Shown here: one piece after another, positions 5,762 through 17,818 of the stretch
Layout: each line of letters begins with the position of its first letter
How positions within the stretch are numbered: the stretch's first letter is position 1
Virus record (IMG/VR): IMGVR_UViG_3300042465_002295
Coordinates: 1-22,051 of that record
Strand: one strand, 5' to 3'
Source: a virus
DNA: 22,051 nucleotides
Made by a program: the position numbers and the translations under genes
The notes under the pieces: generated by a model
Told to the model about the DNA's origin: nothing
The model's database searches: none
The model's input: only the letters and a program-made list of their open reading frames with translations

Positions 5762-5795
5762 GTTCTCGTGTGGGCCAACACACACACGAGAGAAC
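5762..5795 (+). promoter_or_regulatory. Hairpin covering the ribosome binding site of the major capsid gene
   Basis: CTCGTGTG (5765-5772) pairs perfectly with CACACGAG (5783-5790) across a 10-base loop. The stem can extend by GTT/AAC (5762-5764 with 5793-5795) past a two-base bulge. The GAGAG that best serves as Shine-Dalgarno sequence (5788-5792) lies in the 3' arm and bulge, 4 bases before the ATG at 5797. No T-run follows, so this is not an ordinary intrinsic terminator. A role in translation control or mRNA stability is inferred. Confidence 0.5.
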
Positions 5796-5796
5796 C

Positions 5797-6762
5797 ATGG
5801 CAGTCAGTCTGTATCAGTCTGCGCTGATCGCGCAGAACAACGGCGAGTTCAAGAAGGCGGGCATCCTGTCCACGTTTGCGGAGGCTTCGCCTCTGCTCGC
5901 GGCAATGCCGATGGTCACCATCCAGGGCAACAGCTTCGCGTGGACGCGCGAGGCCGGCCTTGGCTCGGTCCAGTTCCGCGCGGTGAACGGCTCCTACACC
6001 GAGAGCGCTGGCACCGTCGAGACGCGCAGCGTCCCGCTCAAGATCATCGGCGGCGACCTCGACGTGGACCGCTACCTCGTCCAGACGCACGGCCAGGAGA
6101 TCCGGTCGGCACATGAGACGATGAAGGCGAAGCTGCTCGCGCAGCGGATCGCCTACGAGATCGTCAAGGGCAGCGTCACCGCTGCGGGCGGCGCGACGGC
6201 GGACGTGAACGGCTTCGACGGCCTGCAGGTCCGCTACGGCGGCGGCTTCGGCACTGCGGTCGTGGACGGCGGCGAGAACGCCGACCAGATCATCCAGAAC
6301 AGCGGCGGCGCGGGCCTGTCGATCAAGTCGCTCGACGAAGCCATCCAGGCCGTCGACAACCCGACGCACCTGCTGATGGCGAAGAAGACGAAGGTCAACA
6401 TGACGGCCTTCATGCGCAGCTCTTCGTCGCTGGCGACCTCGCGCGACGAGTTCGGTCGCATCATCACGACCTACGCGGGTCTGCCGATCCTGGAAGCCGA
6501 CATCCTCGGCACCAGCACCGGCCTTCAGGGCCTCGGCTTCAACGAGAACGCCGACAGCTCGACCTCGATCTACGTCCTGTCCATGTCGGACATGGGCCTG
6601 CAGATGGTCCAGAACGGCGGCATCGAGGTCCGCGACCTGGGCGAGCAGGACAGCAAGCCCGTCTTCCGCACCCGCGTCGAGTGGTACTGCAACGTGGTGG
6701 ACATCCACCCGCGCTGCGTCGCTCGTCTGTACGACATCAGCGACGCCACGGCGATCGCCTGA
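5797..6762 (+). CDS. Major capsid protein
   Basis: The 321-residue product is the likely shell subunit, probably with an HK97-like fold. It has an N-terminal helix (MAVSLYQSALIAQNNGEFKK), then the pattern AEASPLLAAMPMVTIQGNSFAW and an acidic loop VNGSYTESAGTVETRSVPLKIIGGDLDVDR written across residues 67-96. These are features seen in the N-arm and P-domain of small HK97-type capsid proteins resembling the GP7-like group. The RVEWYCNVVDIHPRCVARLYDI end also fits. Position after the scaffold supports it. The start is ATG 5797. An upstream in-frame GTG at 5770 lies inside the hairpin loop region and has no ribosome binding site. Confidence 0.87.
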   Translation: MAVSLYQSALIAQNNGEFKKAGILSTFAEASPLLAAMPMVTIQGNSFAWTREAGLGSVQFRAVNGSYTESAGTVETRSVPLKIIGGDLDVDRYLVQTHGQEIRSAHETMKAKLLAQRIAYEIVKGSVTAAGGATADVNGFDGLQVRYGGGFGTAVVDGGENADQIIQNSGGAGLSIKSLDEAIQAVDNPTHLLMAKKTKVNMTAFMRSSSSLATSRDEFGRIITTYAGLPILEADILGTSTGLQGLGFNENADSSTSIYVLSMSDMGLQMVQNGGIEVRDLGEQDSKPVFRTRVEWYCNVVDIHPRCVARLYDISDATAIA

Positions 6763-6778: not shown

Positions 6779-7228
6779 ATGGCACACCAGAACTTCAACC
6801 ATCTGCTGGACGACTCGCTCCAGCTCAAGGCGGCTGGCCTCGTCCAAAACACCGCCAACGGCTCGCTGGTCGTCGATCTCGGCCCCGGCTTCCACGCCTT
6901 CGACGTGGTCGTCGATTGGACGGCCTGCGAAGTCGCTACGGGCGACGAGGTCTACACCGTCGTCATCCAGGGCGCGACGGACTCGGCGATGACCACGCCC
7001 TACGAGCTGGTCAAGCAGAGCTTCGGTGACTCCAGCGCGAACGGCGACGGCGTCGACACGCCTCCGGCCGGTCGCCTGGTCATCACCGGCAGCAACGTCC
7101 AGATCACCAGCGCCAGCGACGGCAACACCGTTGTCCCGCTGCGGTACATCCGCATCCGCACGATCGTCGGTGGCACGGTCGCCACGGGCTTCAACTACAC
7201 GGCGTGGCTGACGCTGCGGCAGAAGTGA
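6779..7228 (+). CDS. Putative capsid cement/decoration protein, copy 1
   Basis: This 149-residue protein has a good ribosome binding site (AGGAG 6767-6771, 7-base spacing). It looks all-beta: a short helical N-terminus, then VVDLGPGFHAFDVVVDWTAC, GDEVYTVVIQG and a final RYIRIRTIVGG...AWLTLRQK. Its position right after the capsid gene and the IDLG/strand pattern resemble the Bbp16-type jelly-roll cement proteins that reinforce capsids. The next gene is a paralogue. A decoration role is inferred from position and pattern. Confidence 0.72.
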   Translation: MAHQNFNHLLDDSLQLKAAGLVQNTANGSLVVDLGPGFHAFDVVVDWTACEVATGDEVYTVVIQGATDSAMTTPYELVKQSFGDSSANGDGVDTPPAGRLVITGSNVQITSASDGNTVVPLRYIRIRTIVGGTVATGFNYTAWLTLRQK

Positions 7229-7232
7229 ACTC

Positions 7233-7763
7233 ATGGCTTTCCTGGCCTACAACTTCCCGCTGGACCAGGCCGACAAGCTGACCGACACGATCACGCGCAC
7301 CACCGCAGGCTCCACCGACGGAACCGTCGATGCCGCGGCGCGCGTGATCGACCTCGGTCTGCTGCCGCCGGCCTTCAACGTCAACACGACCAGCGTCTCG
7401 CCGTTCGCCAAGATGGCCGTCCTAGTCGATTGGACGACCTGCGATGTCGCCGACGGCGACGAGGTCTACACGTGTGAGCTGCAAGGCTCAAACTCGACGG
7501 CCTTCACCAACGCCTACCGCCTCGGCGTGATGCAGCTCGGCAACGGCAACCTGATCGGCTACCCGGGCGCGTCGTTCGACACGATGCCCAACGGCCGTAG
7601 GGTCTTCTACTGCGACAACTGGATCCAGGCGACCGAGGGCGGCGCGACGGCTGCGTCCAACGCCTTCCACTACTGCACGGCGCGTTACGTGCGGTTCCGC
7701 CTGACGGCGGCTGGCACAACGCCAAGCGTCACGATCCTGGGCGCGTGGCTGATCAAGCAGTGA
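7233..7763 (+). CDS. Putative capsid cement/decoration protein, copy 2 (paralogue)
   Basis: The 176-residue product is clearly related to the gene before it. Both share VDWT-x-C-x-V-A-x-GDEVYT-x-x-x-QG in the middle and a RY-V/I-R-F/I-R-x-T-x-x-G...A-W-L end. This copy is longer at the N-terminus (TRTTAGSTDGTVDAAARVID) and in the loop before the last strands, and it has more cysteines. ATG 7233 comes 4 bases after the previous stop with only a weak AGAAG upstream. Two related beta proteins after the capsid gene suggest cement proteins at two capsid sites, or a cement plus a surface decoration protein. Confidence 0.72.
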   Translation: MAFLAYNFPLDQADKLTDTITRTTAGSTDGTVDAAARVIDLGLLPPAFNVNTTSVSPFAKMAVLVDWTTCDVADGDEVYTCELQGSNSTAFTNAYRLGVMQLGNGNLIGYPGASFDTMPNGRRVFYCDNWIQATEGGATAASNAFHYCTARYVRFRLTAAGTTPSVTILGAWLIKQ

Positions 7764-7840: not shown

Positions 7841-10129
7841 ATGGCAGTCACCGTCTACCCCCAGCCCGTTCCTGCTGCCGGCTTCGCGCCATCGTTCCTG
7901 TTGGCGAGCAGCAAGTACATCGTAACGGCTGGGGCCGTCGGCGGTGCGCAGAGCGCCGCATTCACAATGCAGTGGGATGCAGTAGCTGAGACGGAGTGCG
8001 AATACTGGGACAGCGCCGGAAACGTTGGCTGCCACTGGACTACGATCGGCGCTGACGAGCCGGTCGACGTGCGGGTGCGCCTCGTCGCTGGGCCGATCTT
8101 TGAGGCAAAGGTGTACCCGGGAGGCGTCGCTACGCAGTCGATCGTCGACGGCGAGCTTCGGCTCGTCGTGCCAGCGAATAACCGCCTGCGCGTCGAGGTC
8201 AACGGAGACCGCCGCACGCCCGTGCATCTGTTCGTCAGCCGGCCCGAGATCGAGGAACCCATCGGCGCGGCGCAGTTCAACCCGGCGGCACCTGTCACGT
8301 CGGTCGCCGCCAACCAGGCGCTGACCTTCCCGTCTGGGTTCATCTACCTCATTGAGCCAGGTTTCGCGCTGAACGACGGCTGCACGCTCACGATCGAGGG
8401 CGGCGCGGTCGTCGTGTTTGACACGCCAGACGTGACAGGCGTTGCCACGGCAGGCGCGGCCACGACCATCACGGACAGCACCAAGTCCTGGACCACCAAC
8501 CAGTTCAGCGTCGCCGGCGCATGGGTGCGCATCACGGCAGGCACTGGCGCCGGTCAGATCCGGGAGATCGTCAGCAACACCTCCACGCAGATCACGGTGA
8601 CGCCGGCCTGGACGACCAACCCCACTGCGGGTAGTGCGTTCTCGGTCATAGGCTACCGCCGCGCAGGCTTCGACATCACGAACCTGACGGCGGCCAACAC
8701 TGGCGTGCGCATCCAGGGCCACGGCGTGCTGACCAGCCTGGCAGACTCCTCGAACGCGCAGCAGGACATCGGGTTTGAGACGCAGGTCAAGTACTGCGCC
8801 ATCGCCACGGACTCGGCCCTGACGCCGCGCAACCTGCGTATCGAGGGGCCGACGTTTGTGCGCTGGCCCTTCTACTTGCAGCGCGCCGGTGCGCACTACC
8901 TGCGCAACGTCCAGTACCTGAACCCGTGGACGTTCAACAGCAACGCATTCAACCCTGGCAAGCAGTCGTTTGGAGATCCGCGTGGGACCGTAGTGGAGTG
9001 CTTCGGCTACACCGGCGACGACACATGCATTGTCGTCCAGAGCGGGCAGGTGAACGAGTACTACGGGACGTTCGCGGTAGCGGCGCGGGCCAACGCCTTC
9101 ATCATCGACTATTTCGGCTTTCCTGTGAACGACTCGACGCAGGGCCGCATCGTCGACTGCCATGCGATGCAGCTCGGCGACGCCGATAGCGGGCAAGAGG
9201 GTGTTTACCCTCTCATGGGTGCGCAGTGCATCCTTGCGTGCTGGGTGGACCAGACCAACGCCAACGCAGCCAACGGCGTCTTCAACGTGCAAGTCAGCAA
9301 CTTGAAGGTGTGGGGTCCGCTGTATTCCCGCCTGTGGTCTCTGGAGAATCGCACGTACCCGTTCGGTGGCGTGACGGCGAACAACGCTGCAGGCCAAATC
9401 TTCGACATGCAGTTCGACGGCATCACGTGCGAGTACGTGCCAGGGCAGGTGTCGCGCATCATCGGGCGCGACGCCGTCAGCACGCCGCACGACCTGACGT
9501 TCGCGAACATCACGCTCGGCGGAACGAAACTTGACGCCGGCAACTACCAGCAGTTCGTCGAGGTCAACGCCTTCCCGTATGACCTGACGTGGGACGCTCC
9601 TGGCCTGGTCGTCGAGACGGGCACCGCGAGCGCGACGGCGACGGCGTACTGCTCGCTGGCGTTCGCCAACGCCTACCACGCCAGCTACGGCAACCCGTCG
9701 GCCTGGTCGTCGGCGACGGTGGCGACGCGCGAGGCCGCGATCCGCGAGGCCACGATGGCGCTGGACGCTCGCTACGGCGGGCGCTGGTCGGGCTTCCGCT
9801 ACTCGACCGCGCAGGCGCTCGACTGGCCACGCACGTACGCCTACGACAGCGCCGGCAACGAGATTGCCAGCGACGTGATCCCGGTGCGGCTGCAGCAGGC
9901 GACGGCGGCGATGGCGCTGATGCACATCCAGGGCGTCAGCATCAGCCCGACCGTCCGCACCACTGGCGACATCCGCAGCGAGGCCCTTTCGGCGGCGTCT
10001 GGCGCGTCCAAGTCGGTCACGTACGCCGGAACGAAGCCGAGCGAGACGCAGCTCGTCCAGGTCGAGCGGATGCTGCAGACCGCCGGCCTGGTGTCCTCGG
10101 GCGGTAGCTGGGGGTGGCTGGACCTATGA
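7841..10129 (+). CDS. Fusion: GH49-like beta-helix protein + head-tail connector domain
   Basis: This 762-residue protein has two clear parts. Residues 1-585 resemble family GH49 dextranases/isopullulanases. There is a beta-sandwich N-domain (VEVNGDRRTPVHLFVSRPE, 118-136), then a right-handed beta-helix (ITNLTAANTGVRIQGHGVL, ECFGYTGDDTCIVVQ, repeated N-V-x-V-x-N-L-x-V rungs). G392-D393-D394 lie where GH49 enzymes keep their paired catalytic aspartates. Residues 200-271 are an inserted small beta module. From about residue 589 (LVVETGTASATATAYCSLAFAN...YHASYG...AWSS) to the end it is a DnaT-like/gp6-like head completion domain with the QALDWPR motif. The domain normally starts as a separate protein (M-x-LIVETG). 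No in-frame ATG, GTG or TTG occurs between about 9536 and 9718, so the parts appear truly fused. The ATG at 7841 has a weak ribosome binding site. A role as a glycan-active collar or neck appendage is inferred. Confidence 0.8.
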   Translation: MAVTVYPQPVPAAGFAPSFLLASSKYIVTAGAVGGAQSAAFTMQWDAVAETECEYWDSAGNVGCHWTTIGADEPVDVRVRLVAGPIFEAKVYPGGVATQSIVDGELRLVVPANNRLRVEVNGDRRTPVHLFVSRPEIEEPIGAAQFNPAAPVTSVAANQALTFPSGFIYLIEPGFALNDGCTLTIEGGAVVVFDTPDVTGVATAGAATTITDSTKSWTTNQFSVAGAWVRITAGTGAGQIREIVSNTSTQITVTPAWTTNPTAGSAFSVIGYRRAGFDITNLTAANTGVRIQGHGVLTSLADSSNAQQDIGFETQVKYCAIATDSALTPRNLRIEGPTFVRWPFYLQRAGAHYLRNVQYLNPWTFNSNAFNPGKQSFGDPRGTVVECFGYTGDDTCIVVQSGQVNEYYGTFAVAARANAFIIDYFGFPVNDSTQGRIVDCHAMQLGDADSGQEGVYPLMGAQCILACWVDQTNANAANGVFNVQVSNLKVWGPLYSRLWSLENRTYPFGGVTANNAAGQIFDMQFDGITCEYVPGQVSRIIGRDAVSTPHDLTFANITLGGTKLDAGNYQQFVEVNAFPYDLTWDAPGLVVETGTASATATAYCSLAFANAYHASYGNPSAWSSATVATREAAIREATMALDARYGGRWSGFRYSTAQALDWPRTYAYDSAGNEIASDVIPVRLQQATAAMALMHIQGVSISPTVRTTGDIRSEALSAASGASKSVTYAGTKPSETQLVQVERMLQTAGLVSSGGSWGWLDL

Positions 10130-10494
10130 CGCTCGCCGACGAGTTCCTCGCGCTGGAGACGGAGCTGGCGGCGACGTTCGGCCAGACCGCGACGCTCACC
10201 GTGCGCACGGCGACCGCCTACGCGGCGGCAGGGACTGTCACCGAGACCACGGCCACGGCGACCGTCACTGCCGACGGCCCGGTGAGCGACGTGAGCCGCT
10301 ACGCCGCCGCCGGCATCGACCAGAGCGTCACGGCCACGTGGTACATCCCTGCCAGCGGCCTCGCGCTGGTGCCGAAGAAGGGCGACCGCATCACCGTCGG
10401 CGCGAAGACGTGGCAGTTTGTCGCCGTCGAGAAGTACGCGGTGCAGGGCGTCGTCACCGGCTACCGCTGCGACGCCGGCGAGGTGACGCCGTGA
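10126..10494 (+). CDS. Putative head-closure / head-tail joining protein
   Basis: The 122-residue product has an N-terminal helix (TLADEFLALETELAATFG), an alternating T/A/V beta-rich middle and a closing strand segment (KKGDRITVGAKTWQFVAVE). A small beta barrel with an 'R-I-x-V-x-G' turn is typical of head-closure (Hc1) or head-tail adaptor proteins. Position between the connector domain and the neck protein fits. ATG 10126 overlaps the previous stop (ATGA); a GTG at 10114 would add 4 residues. The family is assigned from position and composition. Confidence 0.65.
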   Translation: MTLADEFLALETELAATFGQTATLTVRTATAYAAAGTVTETTATATVTADGPVSDVSRYAAAGIDQSVTATWYIPASGLALVPKKGDRITVGAKTWQFVAVEKYAVQGVVTGYRCDAGEVTP

Positions 10495-10982
10495 GCAACA
10501 CGCCGCAGTTCGTCGCCGAGCTGAACCGCTGGGTCGACGACAACGCCCGCAAGCAGCCCGTGCAGGTGCTCAAGAAGGTGTGCCAGGACGCCATCCGGGG
10601 CCTCGTCATCAACACGCCCGTGGGCAACCCTGAGGCGTGGGCCATCAACGAGGGCAGGCGCGCGCGTGGCTTGCCGATCATCCGGCGCGCGGGCTACGTC
10701 GGTGGCCACATGCGGCGCAACTTGCAGGCGAACATCAACACGCCGCTGCGCACCGAGCTGCCGGGCGTCGACCCGAGCGGTGCGCGCGTGACGCAGGAAA
10801 TGCGGGCCGTCGTGGCAACCATCACGCGCCCTGTCCGCGTGCACTTCACGTGCCCGGTGCCGTATGCCGAGGTGATCGAGTACGGCAGCGGCAGCAAGAA
10901 GCCCTGGTCAAAACAGGCTCCCAACGGCGTCTTCGGCCCCACCCTGGAAGGCCTGCGCCAACTCTACGCGGTGCGCCGATGA
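10491..10982 (+). CDS. Neck / HK97 gp10-like tail component
   Basis: The 163-residue product carries the PYAEVIEYGSGSKKPWSKQAP motif followed by GVFGPTLEGL, close to the 'P-Y-A-x-x-x-E-Y-G-x-S-x-Q-A-P-x-G' signature of Ne1/HK97 gp10-type proteins, which sit at the neck or tail completion ring. The start GTG 10491 overlaps the previous stop (GTGA) and has a GAGGTG ribosome binding site at 10480-10485. The N-terminal 50 residues are helical with K and Q. Assignment is good by motif and gene order. Confidence 0.8.
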   Translation: MSNTPQFVAELNRWVDDNARKQPVQVLKKVCQDAIRGLVINTPVGNPEAWAINEGRRARGLPIIRRAGYVGGHMRRNLQANINTPLRTELPGVDPSGARVTQEMRAVVATITRPVRVHFTCPVPYAEVIEYGSGSKKPWSKQAPNGVFGPTLEGLRQLYAVRR

Positions 10983-11392
10983 GCCAAGCTGCCGCCATCG
11001 CCGCCATCCGCAGCCGCTTCATCTCGCAGGTGGCGACGCCGCAAGGCCTCGTCGTCGTGTACGACAACGCGCCGGCGGTGGCCTCGACGGTCCCGACCGC
11101 GCGCGTGACCGTGCAGGTGCGCGAGGAGCGCCTCCTGACTCTCGGGCGCCCGCGCCGTTGGCGTGCCGTCGGCGAGGTCGAGGTCCGCCTGTCGCAGCCT
11201 CGCGAGCGCGGCGACGCTGACATACTGGGCAAGGCCGAGGCCGTGCTCGACGCTTTCCGTGGCGTGACGATCGCATCTCCTGTGGTGCGATTCACGCCGC
11301 CCCCGACCGTTGTCGGCGCGCTCGACGCCGAGGACGCCCTGGCGTCGCGCACGGTGCGCGTGCCGTTTGAAGCCGACTACTCCACTACCTGA
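10979..11392 (+). CDS. Tail terminator protein
   Basis: The 137-residue product starts at ATG 10979, overlapping the neck gene stop (ATGA). It shows the tail terminator layout: an N-terminal helix (AAAIAAIRSRFISQV), strands around VVVYDNAPAVASTVPTARVTVQ, then GEVEVRLSQP, a helix GKAEAVLDAFRG, and C-terminal strands ending RTVRVPFEADY. Such proteins cap the tail tube and join it to the neck. Position directly before the tail tube gene is the canonical one. No strong Shine-Dalgarno sequence is visible. Confidence 0.78.
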   Translation: MSQAAAIAAIRSRFISQVATPQGLVVVYDNAPAVASTVPTARVTVQVREERLLTLGRPRRWRAVGEVEVRLSQPRERGDADILGKAEAVLDAFRGVTIASPVVRFTPPPTVVGALDAEDALASRTVRVPFEADYSTT

Positions 11393-14631: not shown

Positions 14632-15582
14632 ATGGCCTTCCACGACGTTTCACTGCCTCCCGAGTTCCAGTACGGCAGCAGCATGGGCGCTGGCTTCTCG
14701 ACGATCGTCCAGCAGACGGCAAGCGGCCACGAGTACCGCGTCGCTCGCCAGTCGCAGAGCGTTCACCGCATGGGCCTTCGCTCCGAGCTGCGCACGTCGC
14801 AGGAGGCGCAGACGCTGAAGGCGTTCGCGCTCGCGCGTCGCGGCGCGCTGCACAGCTTCCGGTGCAAGGACTGGAGCGACTACAGCAGCGCCAGCAACGG
14901 GCAGGCGACGCCTACGACGCTCGACATGATCCTCGGCACCGGCAACGGCACCGTGACGACGTACCAGCTCGTGAAGCGGTACGAGGTGGGCGGGCCGAAC
15001 GAGTACACGCGGACGATCACGCTGCCGGTGAGCGGCACGGTGGTAGCGGCGCTGAACGGCGTGACGACTACGTCCTTCACGGTCAACAGCGCCGGCCAGA
15101 TCGAGTTCGGCACCGCGCCGGGCGTCGGCGTCGTCATCACTGCCGGCTTTCAGTTCGACGTGCCGGTGCGCTTCACCCTCGACGTGGACCGCTGGACGAG
15201 GCTGCAGGCTGATGCGTTCGGCGTCTGGTCGTTGCCGTCGCTCGACGTGCAGGAAGTGCTTGCGGAAGTCGAGTGGCCCGAGCGGTGGCAGAATGGTGGA
15301 AGCAAGGCGCTTGGCACCATCAGCAGCAGCTACCGGTTGGCGTTCAACGACGGCGCGCTGATCACGTACCAGCCGTCTGGCGCTGGCCTGTCGCTGTTCC
15401 TGCCGGTGCCGACCTACCAGGCGTCCGGCCCGCACGTGTTCACGCTGCTGCACACCGGCGGCGGCGCGTCGATCACGCTGCGCGACGATGCCGGCGCGAC
15501 TGTCACGACTATTACCAGCGGAACGACGGTTCGCGTGGGACTGGTGCGCACCTCGACGACGTACTCGTGGGTGACGTACTGA
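14632..15582 (+). CDS. Distal tail protein, DUF2460 (GTA gp12-like), with extra C-terminal domain
   Basis: The first 210 or so residues match the DUF2460 family of distal tail proteins (gene 12 of gene transfer agents): FHDVSLPPEFQYGSSMGAGF at the start, ARRGALHSFRCKDWSDY at about 68-84, FDVPVRFTLDVDRW at about 175-188, and a closing LPSLDVQEV. These form the ring joining tail tube to tip. The typical family length is about 200-215 residues. This protein has 316, the rest being an added beta domain (about 214-316) with the pattern LFLPVPTYQASGPHVFTLLH...W. ATG 14632 follows the previous stop by 6 bases without a good ribosome binding site. Confidence 0.88.
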   Translation: MAFHDVSLPPEFQYGSSMGAGFSTIVQQTASGHEYRVARQSQSVHRMGLRSELRTSQEAQTLKAFALARRGALHSFRCKDWSDYSSASNGQATPTTLDMILGTGNGTVTTYQLVKRYEVGGPNEYTRTITLPVSGTVVAALNGVTTTSFTVNSAGQIEFGTAPGVGVVITAGFQFDVPVRFTLDVDRWTRLQADAFGVWSLPSLDVQEVLAEVEWPERWQNGGSKALGTISSSYRLAFNDGALITYQPSGAGLSLFLPVPTYQASGPHVFTLLHTGGGASITLRDDAGATVTTITSGTTVRVGLVRTSTTYSWVTY

Positions 15583-16682: not shown

Positions 16683-17818
16683 CCACCCGGCCCGGCAACG
16701 AGGCGCTGGAGAGCCTGCGGTTCCAGCACGCAAAGGCCATCTGCCATTTGCTGCTCATCGTGCGCAGCGACGGCGTCGAAGTGGCGTGCACTGACCACGA
16801 CCGCCAGCTCACGTTCGAGGGCCGGACGTACCGCCCCATCATCATGGGCGCGCTGTCTGCCGACCGCCGCGAGGGCGCGCTTCGCAGCGGCGACCAGGAC
16901 GCGCAGGGCATCGTCGACGAGATCCAGATCACCAGCACCGACCTCGACGCGCAGAACTTCCTCGGCGCGGAGGTGCGGCAGGTGCTCGTTGATTGGCGCA
17001 AGCCCGACGTGGTGTTTGCTCGGCATCGCCGCTGGATCCGCAAGATCACTCGCACCGGCGCGACGTTCACCGCGACGTTGGAGGGCCGCACGCAGCAGCT
17101 TCAGCGCCCGCAGGCGGGCCGCTTCGGCGGATTCTTCACCACCAAGTGCCAGTACCGACTGGGCGACCGCTTCTGCAAGAAGGACATCAGTCCCTGGACG
17201 CAGATCAACGCGGCGGCGACGAGCACGGCCTCGGCGGTCGCCACGTCGGTCGGTTACGACTCGGTGATCGACACGACAAAGGCCTGGACGCCCAACCAGT
17301 TCGCCAGCTCGACGACGCAGCAGTGGTGGCTCACGACGACCGCCAACGGCGCGGTCACGACCGGCGCGGGTCAGCTTCGCAAGATCATCAGCAACACGGC
17401 GACCCAGGCCTTCCTCGACTCGGCCTGGACGACGCAGCCGGCCAACACGATCGGGTACCGCATCGGGAGCGGCTTCATCGTGACCAGCGTGACGCGAGGG
17501 CGGTACGAGTTCCGCATCGCTGGCGTCGACGGCGCGCTGGCTGACCAGTGGTTCCGCGACGGCTCGGTGCTGTTCACCAACGGCCCCAACATCGGGCGCG
17601 TGTTCCCGATCGCCGACTACAAGGCGAACAACCGCGACATCACGCTGCTGCTGCCGACGCCGTTCGATGTGACGACGTCGCACTACGGCATCGTGCAGGT
17701 GGGCTGCGACGGCCTGATTGGCACCTGCCGCGACAAGTTCAACAACGTGCTCAACTTCGGCGGCGACCCCTACGCGCCGAGCGCGCAGCAGCTTATCGAA
17801 CCGCCAGAGGAGCAATGA
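16679..17818 (+). CDS. Tail hub protein, DUF2163/BR0599 (GTA gp13-like)
   Basis: The 379-residue product matches the DUF2163/phage BR0599 family. The N-terminus has CHLLLIVRSDGVEVACTDHD and LTFEGRTYRP. The middle has LEGRTQQLQRPQAGRFGGFF followed by KCQYRLGDRFCKKD. The C-terminus has VGCDGLIGTCRDKFNNVLNF, a very typical end for the family. It forms part of the tail hub. Inserted at about residues 188-262 is a small beta module also present in the connector fusion protein. GTG 16679 overlaps the glycine-rich gene stop (GTGA). Confidence 0.9.
   Translation: MTTRPGNEALESLRFQHAKAICHLLLIVRSDGVEVACTDHDRQLTFEGRTYRPIIMGALSADRREGALRSGDQDAQGIVDEIQITSTDLDAQNFLGAEVRQVLVDWRKPDVVFARHRRWIRKITRTGATFTATLEGRTQQLQRPQAGRFGGFFTTKCQYRLGDRFCKKDISPWTQINAAATSTASAVATSVGYDSVIDTTKAWTPNQFASSTTQQWWLTTTANGAVTTGAGQLRKIISNTATQAFLDSAWTTQPANTIGYRIGSGFIVTSVTRGRYEFRIAGVDGALADQWFRDGSVLFTNGPNIGRVFPIADYKANNRDITLLLPTPFDVTTSHYGIVQVGCDGLIGTCRDKFNNVLNFGGDPYAPSAQQLIEPPEEQ

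Follow-up and report, generated by a model that had tools for sequence, protein, structure and literature searches.

What would a head-tail adaptor do with an additional 588 amino acids at its N terminus? The question is raised by the window, the whole viral contig of 22,051 bases analyzed here, which encodes terminase, portal, head morphogenesis protein, scaffold, major capsid, neck, and tail genes in a normal siphovirus-like order. Usual members of the Ad1 adaptor family are ~165 to 200 amino acids long; the Ad1 of this virus is the C-terminal part of a 762-residue product. The answer that we favor, with fair confidence, is that this gene encodes an Ad1 adaptor preceded by a cassette that acts on glycans and has the GH49 architecture, about 12 copies of which would be displayed outward on the neck. 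The features of the locus are as follows.

5770 to 6762, plus strand: major capsid protein (phrog_212, 8.5e-58)
7841 to 10129, plus strand: fused gene, 762 amino acids, GH49-like N-part and Ad1 head-tail adaptor in a single open frame; the fusion recurs in independent contigs
8018 to 8240, plus strand: N-terminal beta-sandwich, residues ~60 to 133, as in GH49 (AF2 pLDDT ~70 to 91 for residues 60 to 130)
8423 to 8656, plus strand: inserted module, residues ~195 to 272, GTGAGQIREIVSNTSTQITVTPAW (low pLDDT; 45% identical copy at 17219 to 17539)
8705 to 9592, plus strand: right-handed beta-helix, residues ~289 to 584 (pLDDT mostly 70 to 96 for residues 340 to 585; GH49 matches by Foldseek and VIA)
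9593 to 10126, plus strand: Ad1 head-tail adaptor domain, residues 585 to 762 (DnaT_2, 7.2e-30; phrog_477, 2e-33)
10114 to 10494, plus strand: head closure Hc1, the next gene in the neck operon (phrog_161, 1e-8)
10338 to 10982, plus strand: tail completion/Neck1, start uncertain, overlapping Hc1 as listed (phrog_169, 3.3e-21)
10637 to 11392, plus strand: tail terminator, start uncertain (phrog_179, 1.2e-12)

One open frame ending in an Ad1 adaptor

The fused gene begins with ATG, and its sole in-frame stop is the TGA at 10127. A sequence-only reading of this DNA had predicted a single polypeptide, on the grounds that positions 9536 to 9718 around the junction hold no start codon. A frame scan bore out both points, finding no in-frame ATG, GTG, or TTG between 9452 and 9718; a complete Ad1 with a start of its own is therefore not available, the nearest downstream candidates (GTG at 9719 and ATG at 9755) lying ~40 to 50 residues within the domain. 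Separate translation of the two parts was dropped for the same reason. The junction reads ...TWDAPGLVVETG, with LVVETG where the earlier reading had LIVETG; standalone Ad1 proteins begin with MAFVVETG or MALVVETG.

The same reading had recognized the C-terminal part as a complete DnaT/gp6-like connector domain, and profile searches agree. Residues 589 to 749 match Pfam DnaT_2 with 104.5 bits against a curated cut-off of 27, across the whole domain (profile positions 3 to 154 of 168), and residues 589 to 757 match PHROG_477, “head-tail adaptor Ad1” (positions 9 to 173 of 220). The gene lies between the capsid genes and head closure, an order common to its relatives, such that by both profile and position the C-part is a full member of the Ad1 family (PHROG_477; Pfam PF20557). 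The two small genes between capsid and adaptor (6779 to 7228 and 7233 to 7763) each match phrog_427 weakly and have in common with one relative a similar stretch of 47 bases, which suggests that a small head gene was duplicated in tandem.

The fusion proved to be present in related phages, in independent contigs at three distances from the window: L001 to L003, with 96% identity (~95% at the DNA level); L019, L021, L047, and L118, with ~57% protein identity; and L031, with 34%. It is uninterrupted in all of them, which rules out a sequencing error hiding a stop or start. Third-position GC is 0.842 in the N-part versus 0.938 in the Ad1 part and 0.924 in the capsid gene, as expected of an acquired segment. 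Between the window and L001, codon differences in residues 1 to 588 are 5 nonsynonymous and 20 synonymous, a hint of purifying selection on the N-part. In bins of 150 bases, the N-parts of this pair are ~95 to 100% identical (mostly 98 to 99%) and the last third of Ad1 only 62 to 85%, a drop suggesting that recombination took place within the adaptor and left the cassette in place.

The GH49-like N-terminal part

An AF2 model of the N-part built from 12 diverse sequences had a mean pLDDT of 62.7 and a pTM of 0.70, superseding one from an alignment of 6 close sequences (pLDDT 38.7). The model is uneven: beta-sandwich and helix are well modeled, and residues 137 to 287 have a pLDDT below 50. Searched against the PDB with Foldseek (E ≤ 1e-3), it returned seven matches, all of them GH49 isopullulanases or dextranases (E values of 7e-7 to 1.5e-5), and the beta-helix proposed from sequence thus has structural counterparts. 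VIA, applied to the same model as a second check, ranked four GH49 entries first (Z of 24.0 to 25.5 over ~400 residues, the highest being 1wmr, with an rmsd of 3.5 over 416 residues), followed by GH28 at 18.5. GH49 chains align from model residue 2 to 7 onward, and the model has the GH49 order of an N-terminal beta-sandwich followed by a right-handed beta-helix; the motif VEVNGDRRTPVHLF at residues 118 to 131 is conserved. No significant match was found among predicted viral structures.

At the sequence level, residues 1 to 580 matched nothing in Pfam at E ≤ 10, including the GH49 families PF03718 and PF17433, and no match spanning the whole domain was found in PHROGs, PDB sequences, or isolated phages. 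A profile of phage N-parts (A6) picks out three planctomycete ORFs, L150, L152, and L153 (profile-profile probability of 99.2%, E of 1.9e-19, 422 columns); L152 and L153 match Pfam GH28 (6e-13 and 9e-12), and L150 matches the PDB dextranase 6nzs at 8e-11, with isopullulanase second. The earlier assignment to GH49 thus holds for the fold, by Foldseek, VIA, and the chain of homology through L150, and fails for Pfam family membership and for the third catalytic Asp. As modeled, the N-part is GH49-like in architecture and not a GH49 member by Pfam.

GH49 catalysis relies on three Asp residues, one in a TDG motif and two in a DD pair. When catalytic positions were aligned to GH49 via L150, the window was found to keep D393 and D394, within the GDD at residues 392 to 394 to which the first reading had drawn attention, and to have N368 at the third expected Asp. 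The DD pair is invariant in 12 of 12 homologues aligned. Asn at the third position occurs in the window and L003, and Asp in L019, L031, L116, L118, and L158; the motifs are TDG...DD in GH49, SDG...DD in L019, L031, and L116, CDG...DD in L156 to L159, and SNA...DD in the window. Catalysis in the window phage may be abolished by N368. Because this residue replaces a catalytic Asp, the cassette is likely a binder or a weak enzyme with reduced catalysis, and binding is at least as likely a role as cutting. Relatives that keep the Asp, like the acetylesterase cassettes described below, are likely active enzymes.

The inserted module at residues ~195 to 272 is absent from L031 and the L155 to L159 group. 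Its ~75-residue pattern, GTGxGQxRxIxxNTxTxLTVxPAW, occurs twice in the contig, once within the adaptor fusion and once in a tail assembly gene (17219 to 17539), and also in many unrelated phage structural genes (L006 to L010, L054, L093, and L155), a distribution that marks it as a putative mobile insertion domain. A tail-region gene at 14632 to 15582 matches phrog_2913, “glycoside hydrolase,” at 1e-53, so that a second glycan enzyme may be present on the virion, at its tail.

Cassettes at the adaptor N terminus

A scan based on Ad1 yielded 80 viral loci, in 35 of which the adaptor is fused, in 42 standalone, and in 3 cut at contig ends. The N-terminal cassettes are 340 to 850 amino acids long and of three kinds without sequence relationship. 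Class A is GH49-like. Class B (~430 to 850 amino acids, the shortest cut by a contig end) has no Pfam match and carries GDS, ND, and H motifs that suggest SGNH hydrolases. Class C is a SASA carbohydrate acetylesterase, above the Pfam cut-off in L061, L069, L086, L092, and L096; nearly all its members have the GQSN and DxxH motifs, and most have GExD. In five class C members (L061, L071, L086, L092, and L096), a large beta-rich insertion separates the GQSN and GExD blocks; the insertions of L071 and L086 weakly match Phage_BR0599. Since classes A and B lack Pfam matches, short Ad1 profile matches in metagenomes would, if these cassettes act on sugars, hide enzymes that current annotation overlooks.

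The cassette classes do not follow the Ad1 tree. Eight label changes among four states were counted, far below shuffled labels and against a minimum of 3, and well-supported branches force at least 4 changes for class A, 3 for class B, and 4 for no cassette. Cassette-free relatives (L028, L053, L017, and L048 to L051) match the window in the order of capsid, two small genes, Ad1, Hc1, Neck1, and terminator, and no cassette was found elsewhere in their sequenced stretches. Major capsid proteins 77 to 81% identical occur both with and without a cassette. With the classes off the tree and the gene order kept in cassette-free relatives, cassettes are acquired, lost, and exchanged at the start of Ad1, and they are dispensable, since ~42 of 80 relatives have none. 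On these sequence comparisons, the adaptor N terminus is a swap site for exchangeable domains resembling sugar enzymes in this family of uncultivated phages, and the window fusion belongs to a wider pattern, in which three unrelated cassette types occur on Ad1 and the GH49-like one also on another connector.

That standalone Ad1 suffices in so many relatives would also suit proteolysis after synthesis, by which a soluble glycosidase is freed and the adaptor part assembles alone. We consider this improbable: no head-protease gene was recognized among the window genes scanned, no internal start lies near the window junction, and the linkers differ between classes, with no common cleavage motif seen. 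Least probable of the alternatives is that the gene yields two products, the full-length protein and a short Ad1 started internally, which would assemble into a mixed ring carrying fewer than 12 modules. Such a ring would ease crowding, and an in-frame GTG or ATG does lie at or near the Ad1 start in L058, L071, L096, and L031; however, such starts are absent from the window (9452 to 9718) and from several class B genes, and internal initiation is therefore not general.

The GH49-like domain also occurs on other carriers. In L159 it is joined to the front of a T7-gp11-like tail tubular protein (phrog_394, 2e-38) whose best PDB match is 8ck1_E, “Connector Protein” (3.5e-16); the genes after it encode a large tail protein (phrog_376) and an internal virion protein. 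This carrier is independent support for placing the domain at the head-tail connection. In L116 and L117, which have a Mu gpT-like capsid, the domain lies ahead of a C-part immediately upstream of a Neck1 gene, and in L155 to L158 it lies ahead of a 130-residue domain; no family assignment was found for either partner. L118 and L155, different phage contigs, both fall in one Phycisphaerales MAG (G001, contigs C33 and C50), a placement that hints at planctomycete hosts and might also be a binning artefact.

A proposed collar and its precedents

In the fused-adaptor reading, the adaptor part would bind the portal by its C-terminal part and form the usual 12-mer there, with the N-terminal cassettes facing outward in a collar of at most 12. 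By analogy with known adaptor structures, then, the neck of this virus probably carries some dozen modules by which host-surface sugars are gripped or trimmed. We infer both the location and the glycan activity of the cassette, the former because the module is fused to the adaptor. By binding or trimming host-surface or matrix polysaccharide, the modules could slow diffusion off the cell or clear a path, and exchange of cassettes would retune the virion to other glycans with the tail tip untouched. We think it somewhat probable, and hold this less firmly than the reading of the window itself, that the adaptor N terminus is a general docking site for exchangeable glycan-active cassettes (GH49-like, SGNH-like, and SASA esterase), shared by several unrelated adaptor families. 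These cassettes would then be an undescribed class of virion enzymes or adhesins, carried as a collar on the adaptor and retuned independently of the tail tip. Adaptors are regarded as small conserved plugs; if the proposal is true, the neck is a second site of host interaction on the virion, at which glycan specificity can be acquired or altered, and the adaptor offers a natural template for fixed-copy-number display.

Structures of other adaptors bear on this proposal. In JBD30 the adaptor is a dodecamer whose C terminus sits in the portal cleft (PMC11445458). The adaptor of roseophage R4C carries an N-terminal Ig-like domain in 12 copies outside the shell, where it contacts the capsid (PMC10276861). 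The likeness to the window lies in an extra N-terminal domain, of which copy number and location would be the same; unlike the window cassette, the R4C domain is a small (106 amino acids) capsid-binding Ig that is neither enzyme-like nor exchangeable. This precedent, together with the N368 substitution, lends some weight to an inert, structural N-part, either a collar or a clamp between capsid and neck, with a catalytically dead beta-helix serving to brace the portal vertex. Such a role seems unlikely, because a fixed capsid clamp would forbid the swapping of three unrelated enzyme-like folds at one junction; the capsids 77 to 81% identical with and without a cassette, and the catalytic motif retained in several relatives, also speak against it.

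Among known systems, GH49 enzymes (isopullulanase 1wmr/3wwg, Dex49A 1ogm, and dextranase 6nzs) have in common with the window N-part the beta-sandwich and beta-helix over most of the chain and the retained DD pair, and they differ from it in that the N-part has 10 to 14% identity to them, lacks a Pfam GH49 match, has Asn for one Asp, and is fused to a phage structural protein. Phage tailspike depolymerases (CBA120 TSP2, Sf6, and K2-2) are likewise virion-borne right-handed beta-helices acting on glycans, but they are trimeric spikes attached at another site, the tail tip, and match the model less well than GH49 does (VIA Z of 14 to 15). We found no description of adaptor-fused enzyme domains in the open-access literature. 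The proposed collar has an analogue in the neck passage structure (NPS) of lactococcal 936 and TP901-1 phages, a dispensable neck collar that binds cells and ends in swappable carbohydrate modules, among which are pectin/alginate beta-helix groups and others related to carbohydrate esterases (PMC6669499; PMC10684548). Modules are exchanged in both systems; in the window phage, the adaptor fusion suggests that they would sit at the neck. The NPS, however, is a separate protein with a BppU-like N-terminal anchor and its module at the C terminus, whereas the window module is built into the adaptor; a Pfam scan of the fusion detected no BppU domain, and its anchor is Ad1 itself.
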